A stretch of 34,288 bases of DNA from Candidatus Collierbacteria bacterium GW2011_GWA2_42_17 (GCA_000998275.1 LCDA01000001.1:180352-214639); one strand, 5' to 3'. Shown: positions 4,695 through 10,261, numbered from the stretch's first letter. Translations and numbers: made by a program. The notes: a model not told the origin generated them from the letters alone.

Positions 4695-5045
4695 CTAGAG
4701 AGTAGGGATAGTGAAGGTGGTAACATCAGTCCCGGTAAATTTGCTGATTAAAACAAGAATCAGCCAAGCAACAGAAAGAAGAATGAGGCCAATGATAGCC
4801 CAGGTAAAGGTACTCCAAGCGGCGGCGACGGCTTTGGGGTCGGCTCCGGCGGTAAGAAGGCGAATACCAGCAAAAATAATCATGCCGACGGCAACAAGAG
4901 CAAGAAGGGCGGGAACTGGGCTGATAAGGTTGCTAAAAACACACTCGATACCTTTGATGGTGGCAACTCCTTCGGGGGAAACACACTCGGGATTAATCTC
5001 TACCCAGGAAGCGGCATAGACTTGGGGAACAAGTTGAAAGTTCAT
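4695..5045 (-). CDS. VirB2/TrbC-like T4SS pilin paralog 1
   Basis: Two TM segments flanking IIFAGIRLLTAGADPKAVAAAWSTFTWAIIGL; ATG 5045 preferred over TTG 5066 because TATAAT lies 6 nt upstream. Confidence 0.8.
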   Translation of the reverse strand: MNFQLVPQVYAASWVEINPECVSPEGVATIKGIECVFSNLISPVPALLALVAVGMIIFAGIRLLTAGADPKAVAAAWSTFTWAIIGLILLSVAWLILVLISKFTGTDVTTFTIPTL

Positions 5046-5063
5046 AAAATCATTATATCCTAA

Positions 5064-5090
5064 CAAAAACCCCGGTTGCCCGGGGTTTCT
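5064..5090 (-). terminator. Rho-independent terminator inside the pilin array
   Basis: Minus strand AAACCCCGG-gcaa-CCGGGGTTTTTGTT: GC-rich hairpin followed by T tract, between paralogs 2 and 1. Confidence 0.8.
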
Positions 5091-5107
5091 TGACTAATTC
5101 TAAATAC

Positions 5108-5443
5108 TTAGTAAGGGAGAGGAGGGGTAATATTACCGGAAAAGATATCAATACCGAAGAAGTAGGAAATGAGTTGCATGAGGGCCCAGGAAGCGGCAAC
5201 GATGGCGAGACCGACAAGAGCGGCGGTAATGCGGTTTCTGGCCTGTTCGGTTTTAGATTTATCACCTCCGGAAGTGAGCCATTCGATACCACCAAGAACC
5301 AAGAAGACGAAGGTAAGGATACCGGCGACAATAAAGGCAACTTGAATGGCGGCAGAAATTAATTTACCAATATCGGTGATCTTCATATTGGCGGGTCTAA
5401 GTGAACCGATTTCTGCGGCGAAGGTTTGAGGAATTAAAGACAT
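5108..5443 (-). CDS. VirB2/TrbC-like T4SS pilin paralog 2
   Basis: FVFLVLGGIEWLTSGGDKSKTEQARNRITAALVGLAIV motif, two TMs. Confidence 0.85.
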   Translation of the reverse strand: MSLIPQTFAAEIGSLRPANMKITDIGKLISAAIQVAFIVAGILTFVFLVLGGIEWLTSGGDKSKTEQARNRITAALVGLAIVAASWALMQLISYFFGIDIFSGNITPPLPY

Positions 5444-5488
5444 ATATTTTCTTTTTATTAATTAATGGAGACTGTATTTATTATTATA

Positions 5489-5509
5489 GTGTTTTCTTTG
5501 GTTGTCAAC
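5489..5509 (-). promoter_or_regulatory. Internal promoter for pilin paralog 2 (approximate)
   Basis: Minus strand TTGACA (5504..5509) overlapping the stop of paralog 3, followed by ...CACTATAATAAT. Confidence 0.5.
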
Positions 5510-5861
5510 TGCCGACGGGATTGTCAGTACAAAGCTGACTGAGATCAATACCGAAGAAATCAAGAACGAGAACATAGATGGCGTAGCTAGCGGCAACGAT
5601 GGCGAGACCAATTAGAGCATTGCTGATCATTTTTTGGGCGGTTTCAACTTTACCTTTGTCGCCTCCGGAAGTGAGCCAGTTTATGCCGCCGATAACCAAG
5701 AAGGCAAAAGTGGCAATAGCGGCAATAATAAAGGCAACACTAATAATATTGCCAATAAGATTGCCGATACAGGAGTAACCAAAAAAGTTGTTTTTACTAA
5801 CTTCTCCCCCGATATCAACGACTTGGTCCGCGGCGAAAACAGAAGGAATTAGTTTAATCAT
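5505..5861 (-). CDS. VirB2/TrbC-like T4SS pilin paralog 3
   Basis: FAFLVIGGINWLTSGGDKGKVETAQKMISNALIGLAIV motif; start overlaps the stop of paralog 4. Confidence 0.85.
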   Translation of the reverse strand: MIKLIPSVFAADQVVDIGGEVSKNNFFGYSCIGNLIGNIISVAFIIAAIATFAFLVIGGINWLTSGGDKGKVETAQKMISNALIGLAIVAASYAIYVLVLDFFGIDLSQLCTDNPVGS

Positions 5862-8435: not shown

Positions 8436-8438
8436 AAG

Positions 8439-8861
8439 TTGAGAGTGTTTGAGAGAAAAGGGGAGATAGTATTGGTGGATATGGAAGTACCACGATATTG
8501 GAGAGAAATGAAAACAAACACCAGCTTTACCGGGAGAGAAGTTGGCACATACGGAGTTGAGCCAGCCTATTTTAAGTACCCAGGGGGAAAGATTGCTTTG
8601 CAGGGAACATACGAAGAAATCTATTCGCGTTTTGAAAGCAAGGGTTTTGAACCTGAAATAATTGAAAAAGTATTATTTAACCTTTTTGGGGCTGTCGCCT
8701 CCGAAGCGGCGGTCTCGTTTGAGAAAATCGTCAATAGCCAAGATGAGTTGGTCGGGAGTGAAGTCCGGAAAGAGAGTGGGAGTGAAGAGAAGTTCGGAGT
8801 AGACAGATTGCCAGGGAAGATAGCCAGAAAGACGCTTTTCTCCTCCCGTGCGAATAATTAA
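8439..8861 (+). CDS. Hypothetical protein; 3' part antisense to uppS
   Basis: TTG-start 140 aa ORF 3 nt after the polyprenyl synthetase stop; about 78 N-terminal codons are non-overlapping, the remainder overlaps the 3' end of uppS. Confidence 0.45.
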   Translation: MRVFERKGEIVLVDMEVPRYWREMKTNTSFTGREVGTYGVEPAYFKYPGGKIALQGTYEEIYSRFESKGFEPEIIEKVLFNLFGAVASEAAVSFEKIVNSQDELVGSEVRKESGSEEKFGVDRLPGKIARKTLFSSRANN

Positions 8862-9383
8862 GTCGGGGTCAGGAATACCGGCGGTGTCTAAGTAAGAAGA
8901 AAAAAGAGACTCATCGATTTTTTCAACAGGAGTATTATTAGCTACGATTTTTTTGACGGCTCTTAGAATTTCGTCACGGCCACCGTAGTTTAAGGCAAAA
9001 GTGACGGTTATTTTATGATTTTTGGAGGATTTGGTAATCATTTCCAGAGATTTCTGGGCAATGTCTTTGGGGAAGCGGCTAATATCTCCTAAAATGCGCA
9101 AGCGGGCGCCTCTTTGGATAAAGCGGAGAGCTAGAGAACCAAGAGCAAAACGAAAAACTTCAAAGAGTCCTTTGAGTTCGACTTCGTCACGTTTCCAGTT
9201 TTCGGTGGAGAAGGCCCAGAAAGTGACATAGGGAATACCGAGCTCAACACATTTTTCGATAAGAGGTTCGATGGCCTTTTTGGCAGCCTGTTCGTGGCCT
9301 TTGACAGGATCAAGACCTTGAGCTTTAGCCCAGCGACGATTGCCGTCCATAATGATAGCCACATGTTTTAGGGGGGGTTCCAT
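8673..9383 (-). CDS. uppS: Isoprenyl transferase / undecaprenyl diphosphate synthase
   Basis: MEPPLKHVAIIMDGNRRWAKAQG...YVTFWAFSTENWKR...FALNYGGRDEI...PDPDLIIRTGGEKRLSGYLPWQSVYSEL. Confidence 0.95.
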   Translation of the reverse strand: MEPPLKHVAIIMDGNRRWAKAQGLDPVKGHEQAAKKAIEPLIEKCVELGIPYVTFWAFSTENWKRDEVELKGLFEVFRFALGSLALRFIQRGARLRILGDISRFPKDIAQKSLEMITKSSKNHKITVTFALNYGGRDEILRAVKKIVANNTPVEKIDESLFSSYLDTAGIPDPDLIIRTGGEKRLSGYLPWQSVYSELLFTPTLFPDFTPDQLILAIDDFLKRDRRFGGDSPKKVK

Positions 9384-9407
9384 GGTGTTGATTATACCAA
9401 AATGAGG

Positions 9408-9743
9408 CTAAACAAGATTGTCGAGGCCGAGAACTCTAGTGACTAGTCGGACAATAACAAAAGCGGCGATAGTCATGATGAGACCGATTAGACCATTGGT
9501 GATGCGAGTCGTGGCCATCTGGACTTTTTTAGGGTCACCGGAGCTCATCATATATCCCCAACCGGCCATAACCAAGTTAGCAAAGAAAATAAGACCGACA
9601 ATAATGAAGACAAAATTTAATAAGCTAAAGCCTCCCTCGGAAAAGAGATCGGTGATTTTTGAGGTGAGAGGAATGTTGGGAGCGGGGTTAGGTAGATCGG
9701 AGATATTAACGTCTGCAGCTAAAATTTGGTTTGTAAGAGTCAT
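9408..9743 (-). CDS. VirB2/TrbC-like T4SS pilin paralog 8
   Basis: NLVMAGWGYMMSSGDPKKVQMATTRITNGLIGLIMTIAAF motif. Confidence 0.85.
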   Translation of the reverse strand: MTLTNQILAADVNISDLPNPAPNIPLTSKITDLFSEGGFSLLNFVFIIVGLIFFANLVMAGWGYMMSSGDPKKVQMATTRITNGLIGLIMTIAAFVIVRLVTRVLGLDNLV

Positions 9744-9748
9744 TATTT

Positions 9749-10261
9749 TTATGATAACCCCGGGATACCCAGGATGTTAATACCAATTAAATTTACTAGG
9801 AAAATAGACAAAAGAATAAAAATGAGACCAATAACGGCGGAGGTGATGATTTCACTGCCGGCTTTAAGTTTGTCCGGCATACCGGCAGAGGTGGTTACAA
9901 TGAAGACGCCGTAGAGGATAAGGGCGAGAGCAATACCGCCCCCAAGACCGGTGGCTAAACGGAGAATAGAAGTGATGAGGTCGTTGCCGGAGCCAACTTT
10001 GATGCAGCCAAGGGCGGTATTGATACCACTGCTTTCATCCCCTTGGATACAAAACGGATCAGTGGCGGTAGGAACAATTTTACTGTAAATAGGACTTTCA
10101 CATTCATAGGTTGTCCCATCGCTGCTTAGTTGACAACCCTCTTTAGTATGATCAACAACACATTCTAAGTTGGTTTGACAAGTTGCTGCAAAGGACTTGG
10201 TCGAAAAAAGAAAAACAAAGGTAATTAGAAGTAGAGGGATGGCAAGGAATTGGCGTTTCAT
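9749..10261 (-). CDS. VirB2/TrbC-like T4SS pilin paralog 9 with longer Cys-containing N-terminus
   Basis: Signal peptide MKRQFLAIPLLLITFVFLFSTKSFAA; ALILYGVFIVTTSAGMPDKLKAGSEIITSAVIGLIFI; ATG 10261 preferred over TTG 10267. Confidence 0.75.
   Translation of the reverse strand: MKRQFLAIPLLLITFVFLFSTKSFAATCQTNLECVVDHTKEGCQLSSDGTTYECESPIYSKIVPTATDPFCIQGDESSGINTALGCIKVGSGNDLITSILRLATGLGGGIALALILYGVFIVTTSAGMPDKLKAGSEIITSAVIGLIFILLSIFLVNLIGINILGIPGLS

Follow-up and report, generated by a model that had tools for sequence, protein, structure and literature searches.

Nine positionally conserved type IV secretion pilins in a Collierbacteria genome and their probable division of labour

The DNA analysed here is a stretch of 34,288 nucleotides (hereafter the window; GCA_000998275.1 LCDA01000001.1:180352-214639) from Candidatus Collierbacteria bacterium GW2011_GWA2_42_17, a member of the class Microgenomatia in the candidate phyla radiation (CPR) whose genome comprises 731 kb in 15 contigs. 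It carries an array of nine pilin genes of a type IV secretion system (T4SS), and comparison with related genomes argues that the nine pilins divide the labour between one major and eight specialised subunits rather than serving antigenic variation, a reading to which a probability of about 0.6 is assigned. As judged from their sequences, the nine copies are not interchangeable; they are ancient, individually conserved and under purifying constraint. The array itself is of a published kind. Arrays of several pilins occur in almost all CPR bacteria, and the sole cultivated species tested cannot do without its series. For Microgenomatia, the findings below speak against antigenic variation and point to a probable major pilin (pilin 8) and a likely tip (pilin 1).

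Positional orthology of the nine pilins

All members of the family sample (11 genomes of the host's family with the whole locus) contain exactly nine pilins in the same layout of two genes, a gap of 1.1-2.3 kb and seven genes. When the nine window pilins are compared with those of the ten other family genomes, the pilin of the same position is the best match in 90/90 comparisons, and mean identity over the 11 genomes is 69% for the same position versus 29% between positions; within the array, the core is on average 31% identical. A paralog phylogeny made with FastTree resolves all nine positions as clades. IQ-TREE recovers six exact clades (bootstrap 97-100), with positions 3 and 4 one row off each and position 7 four rows off. 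When position profiles built from the family are run on 51 loci from other families in the class, 576 gene pairs are concordant and 19 discordant, and the largest surplus among 10,000 order shuffles is 121. The ratio of nonsynonymous to synonymous substitution rates (dN/dS), taken for pairs with dS < 1.5, is 0.05-0.41 in every pair listed. The initial annotation had offered a heteropolymeric or switchable filament, or several specialised membrane subunits. A heteropolymeric filament or a set of specialised subunits is supported as a reading, whereas switching is unsupported because orthology holds copy by copy, purifying constraint acts on every copy throughout the family, and the order persists across the class. 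That a single pilin per genome is orthologous and the others degenerate was also tested, and is false.

The nine genes are complete open reading frames (ORFs) at the coordinates given by the initial annotation, all on the minus strand, and the T4SS-pilin assignment made there stands, with 9/9 products above the gathering score of the Pfam family PF18895 (T4SS_pilin; 27.2-48 bits versus a cut-off of 26.6). A search of the whole 731 kb with this profile returns no tenth pilin above the cut-off, making the locus the sole such place in the genome. Numbered in transcription order, pilin 1 occupies 9749..10261 from an ATG (170 aa; the start given previously) or 9749..10267 from a TTG (172 aa), scores 27.5 bits and forms an IQ-TREE clade with support of 100/100, and pilin 2 (9408..9743; 111 aa; 36.2 bits) forms one with 98/99. 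After the gap follow pilin 3 (6997..7314; 105 aa; 48 bits) and pilin 4 (6614..6991; 125 aa; 28.0 bits), both clades with FastTree, then pilin 5 (6223..6612; 129 aa; 29.9 bits; 100/99) and pilin 6 (5858..6220; 120 aa; 29.5 bits; 100/96). Pilin 7 (5505..5861; 118 aa; 27.2 bits) has a loop segment in common with pilin 6, and the two genes overlap by 4 nt, an overlap kept in 10/11 family genomes. Pilin 9 (4695..5045 from its probable ATG start; 42.6 bits; 100/100) belongs to an ORF that extends to a TTG at 5066. The consensus core previously described for these proteins matches positions 4-8 closely and positions 1, 2, 3 and 9 more loosely (SAGMPDK, SSGDPKK, ASGDKAK and AGADPKA). Pilins 2-9 mostly begin with a very short leader that ends in an AxA-like motif and has no clear hydrophobic core (e.g., MSLIPQTFAA, MIKLIPSVFAAD), in contrast to pilin 1, whose Sec signal is an ordinary one.

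The number of copies had been said to deserve attention. By the copy-number survey it is not exceptional: nine copies are ordinary here because similar numbers occur in relatives, which commonly carry 5-10 pilins, and such arrays have been published. The PF18895 family is present in 38/38 genomes of the relatives sampled (typically 8-10 copies), in 102/109 genomes of the class and in 189/193 of the phylum, mostly in several copies. Two records titled Omnitrophota (L088) and TM6 (L122) have Microgenomates-like pilin arrays, probably because they were misbinned or misnamed.

A near-identical segment had been reported between paralogs 3 and 4 as a sign of recent duplication; these were counted in coordinate order, opposite to transcription, and are therefore positions 7 and 6. 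The segment exists, with 48/51 nt identical over GGDKGKVETAQKMISNA. The flanks fall to 5-11/15, near background identity, because of which the patch is seen to be local and not a duplicated gene. Similar tracts occupy the same loop between genes 6 and 7 in G014 and between genes 7 and 8 in G001, G002, G005 and G014, and on these tracts and the flanks the idea that genes 6 and 7 duplicated recently was rejected. The sequences thus identify the 50-nt patch as gene conversion of a loop segment, which neighbouring genes exchange while the remainder of each gene keeps its positional identity.

Candidate major pilin, likely tip and a lysozyme-like partner

In most genomes, pilin genes 1-2 and 3-7 are spaced by -4 to +9 nt. 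Gene 8 (5108..5443, minus strand; 111 aa; 37.3 bits; IQ-TREE clade 97/99) is set apart by an upstream spacer of 59-83 nt and by a downstream spacer. The upstream side contains a promoter-like site at 5483..5508 on the minus strand (TTGACA-14-TATAAT, with AATAAT at spacing 17), the best promoter match in window positions 1-10600, and the downstream side an intrinsic terminator at 5064..5086 on the same strand (ACCCCGGGCAACCGGGGT, then a T-rich tail), within whose tail the upstream TTG of pilin 9 falls. The TTGACA...TATAAT pair precedes pilin 8 in 10/11 family genomes and is absent from the five close pilin junctions (0/55); the terminator likewise follows pilin 8 in 10/11 genomes and none of the other junctions (0/66). 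In other families of the class, the promoter is found before pilin 8 at 29/54 versus 12/242 junctions and the terminator after it at 22/53 versus 2/242, and the class-level terminator enrichment persists once spacer length is controlled (p 7e-7). Because of the two signals flanking pilin 8, a single unbroken operon of all nine genes was rejected. Conservation, too, is highest at pilin 8 (84% mean identity), and its codon adaptation index (CAI) is the highest of the nine in 3/5 genomes (G000, G001 and G010). Its AlphaFold2 (AF2) model is a two-helix hairpin (helices 23-57 and 62-96 around a short polar loop) with a predicted local distance difference test (pLDDT) score mostly above 90 in that part. 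Fold matches, the Aeropyrum conjugation pilus among them, are weak, as expected because the shape is so simple, and a sequence search of solved structures returned nothing useful and matched no solved pilin. On conservation and transcription signals, pilin 8 is probably the major (bulk) pilin.

Pilin 1 combines a Sec-type signal and an ectodomain with a C-terminal pilin hairpin. The ectodomain is Cys-rich in the window gene and in many relatives, and the length of the protein varies between lineages, with a median of 233 aa over loci and up to several hundred. In one relative (G033), two adjacent copies have 112 identical C-terminal residues and a differing N-terminal part. The ectodomain is thus variable while the pilin domain is kept, a pattern that makes pilin 1 the likely tip or tip-proximal, contact-making subunit.

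Directly after pilin 9 lies the gene for a large, predicted secreted protein of 791 aa (2298..4673, minus strand) with a C-terminal domain modelled as lysozyme-like (GH23-like). Relatives share this domain, in which H50 and E53 (domain numbering) do not vary, and its AF2 model has a pLDDT of 85.9. The top fold matches in the PDB are goose-type lysozymes and lytic transglycosylases, with probabilities up to 0.99, but the best E value is 0.035 and TM scores are 0.34-0.45; a PDB sequence search with the domain gave no match, and none of 11 members of the protein family matches a Pfam family, including the SLT/VirB1 profiles. The protein resembles VirB1/GH23 lytic transglycosylases in its tentatively predicted lysozyme fold, an invariant Glu that terminates a helix, a YNGGG motif and its place in T4SS gene order; it differs from them in having no sequence-profile match, a large N-terminal region and, in some relatives, a fusion to a pilin domain (L076, L081 and L091). 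Most pilin-bearing Patescibacteria genomes have been reported without VirB1 (PMC12102498), and the modelled fold makes the 791-aa protein a candidate for the role missing in that survey.

Alternative explanations and known systems

Under a division of labour, the nine genes would encode the pilins of a chromosomal T4SS of the host bacterium. Pilin 8 would supply the bulk subunit from its own promoter and terminator, pilins 2-7 and 9 would be conserved accessory subunits, each with its own role in base, body or regulation, and pilin 1, with its exchangeable extracytoplasmic domain, would make contact at or near the tip. Assembly would be driven by VirB4 and VirB6, and the wall opened by the lysozyme-like protein together with an M23 peptidase; co-assembly, stoichiometry, filament extrusion, wall opening and a function in attachment or exchange are what we infer. 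The more specific proposal of a heteromeric filament with fixed parts (one separately expressed bulk pilin, eight non-interchangeable pilins ordered class-wide, and an exchangeable ectodomain on the first) is offered tentatively, as possible but doubtful. To our knowledge, no T4SS pilus of such composition has been described. In agreement with a division of labour, the T4SS cluster of Ca. Southlakia epibionticum includes an essential pilin series (PMC10633639), which according to PMC12857230 consists of six pilins.

Several observations weigh against a division of labour. Position 7 forms no clean IQ-TREE clade, although the approximately unbiased (AU) test does not reject such a clade (p 0.19), and position profiles failed outside Microgenomatia, where position numbers are not assignable. 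The class-level promoter enrichment before pilin 8 is marginal once spacer length is controlled (p 0.04), the promoter-like site has a spacing of 14 nt where 17 is usual, and its TTGACA shares bases with the stop codon of gene 7. In two genomes (G002 and G007), the CAI of pilin 8 is not the highest, and a hairpin of two helices does not by itself mark a protein as a pilin.

The arrangement could instead supply variant pilins, that is, interchangeable surface forms widening host range or evading recognition. The high divergence within the array and the variable ectodomain of pilin 1 would suit such a purpose, as would two published views: versatility towards different host strains is favoured for Patescibacteria T4SSs (PMC12102498), and the TrwL copies of Bartonella are regarded as variant forms of the pilus (PMC2610397). 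Variation here is, however, concentrated in one position and not spread across nine; every position is under purifying constraint, the promoter and terminator single out pilin 8 alone, and positional orthology and order are conserved over family, order and class. Host-range or antigenic variation alone would not maintain nine identities and their order across a class, and this explanation is quite improbable. The Bartonella Trw system resembles the present locus in its tandem VirB2-type genes and in a T4SS without an adjacent coupling protein; its copies are regarded as variant pilus forms produced by tandem duplication in an R388-like locus, whereas those of the window, set against it from the published description, are old and conserved one by one. 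Neither duplication confined to a lineage nor diversifying change among the copies was found, given the one-to-one orthology and the low dN/dS of the listed pairs. A related explanation, in which recent tandem amplification under relaxed selection left most copies redundant, draws on the near-identical patch of genes 6 and 7; it is extremely improbable, since that patch is loop-confined gene conversion with like tracts between other neighbours in other genomes, the nine copies are all ancient and constrained, and one-to-one orthology across the family contradicts it.

Two further alternatives concern what the pilins build and what it is for. The nine subunits might form a short mixed-subunit conduit from membrane to wall, a channel with no extruded filament, as Gram-positive T4SSs function without pili (PMC12102498) and most Gram-negative T4SSs appear to need pilins whether or not they make a pilus (PMC12857230). 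A strongly conserved bulk pilin with predicted separate transcription and an ectodomain-bearing pilin 1 suit a filament better, and a conduit is decidedly unlikely. An import device for DNA or nutrients, like the archaeal Ced system, is a proposal about purpose, under which the pilins could divide the labour as well; it would be built with conjugation-type pilins and a VirB4-family ATPase. The VirB4 of the locus matches CedB weakly (56.6 bits), the one relaxase family tested (PF03432) is absent, the weak fold matches of pilin 8 include the Aeropyrum pilus, and CPR bacteria do not synthesise nucleotides (PMC10633639). The CedB match is nevertheless far under its cut-off of 700, VirB4 is far closer to the Gram-positive CD1110 family (375 bits), and sequence cannot reveal the direction of transport; import is given a modest share of belief, as an unlikely purpose.

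Division of labour has to be set beside arrays already described. Those of Patescibacteria (PMC12102498), including that of strain ML1 of Ca. Southlakia epibionticum (PMC10633639), resemble this one in having tandem PF18895 pilins by VirB4, PrgI, TrsD- and VirB6-like genes, a place near dnaA/dnaN, no relaxase nearby and strong divergence within the array. The published account stresses variability (PMC12102498), whereas the present analysis emphasises positional orthology throughout the class, the dedicated promoter-like site and terminator of a single pilin, gene conversion in the loop and the lysozyme-like protein; a limited search of open-access literature found none of these four. The two-helix hairpin of the window's pilins recurs in archaeal conjugation-type pilins and in pilin-like proteins of the Mbov_0395 family (NF045849). 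Matches to NF045849 remain below its cut-off (up to 36.9 bits versus 40), no solved pilin is matched by sequence, and fold similarity is weak.

Genes around the array

The genes surrounding the pilins identify the locus, on sequence, as the MPF-FATA-like T4SS described for Patescibacteria, which often lies near dnaA and whose arrays hold 2-11 VirB2-like genes across 383 assemblies (PMC12102498). Downstream of the 791-aa protein are a membrane-anchored protein of 171 aa (1781..2296, minus strand), which adjoins VirB6 in several relatives by gene-order comparison, and a polytopic VirB6-like membrane protein of 598 aa (1..1754, minus strand, extending about 40 nt past the window). The latter occupies the expected place and its homologues adjoin pilin arrays class-wide; searches against Pfam and NCBIfam gave no profile match, and iterated profiles drifted into pilins. 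Its first hairpin (residues about 188-271) shows a weak similarity to the pilin hairpin in profile comparison (probability 40%, P 3e-4) and in single hits, which was not used here; the two hairpins may possibly have a common origin.

Left of the window follow a PrgI/VirB3 homologue (PF12666, 30.9 bits versus a cut-off of 27), a TrsD-like protein of 217 aa, VirB4, an M23 peptidase with a membrane part, and then dnaN and dnaA, at 9.5-12.3 kb from position 1. The TrsD-like protein matches NF041427 at 20.4 bits, far under the cut-off, but stands in the expected place and has similarity to the VirB4 N-terminus. The initial annotation had proposed looking for VirB4 and VirD4 ATPases in this flank. 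The former is present as a 613-aa protein of the monoderm type, described as split (PF19044, 98.6 bits; NF045971 of the CD1110 family, 375 bits versus a cut-off of 325). For the VirD4 coupling protein there is no match over the cut-off, the best candidate in the genome being one distal ORF (17.8 bits, below 20.1), and a genome search for a relaxase with PF03432 only gave no match. Between VirB6 and PrgI, an opposite-strand gene encodes 729 aa (L011:17682-19871, left of the window); most relatives have an opposite-strand gene of roughly 600-1300 aa downstream of VirB6.

The gap between pilins 2 and 3 holds uppS, for undecaprenyl diphosphate synthase (8673..9383, minus strand; PF01255, 243 bits), and a polyprenyl synthetase gene divergent from pilin 3 (7344..8435, plus strand; PF00348, 185 bits). 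The position of uppS within the array and in its orientation is found in this family only; the placement is lineage-specific because other families have the gene nearby on the opposite strand or elsewhere. A SpoIID-domain coiled-coil protein (window 10303-11976) is divergent from pilin 1 and adjoins it in many families. Farther along the window are a transfer-messenger RNA (15536-15928) and a tRNA cluster at 17108-20584, in which five Ser and two Arg genes lie within 3.5 kb.

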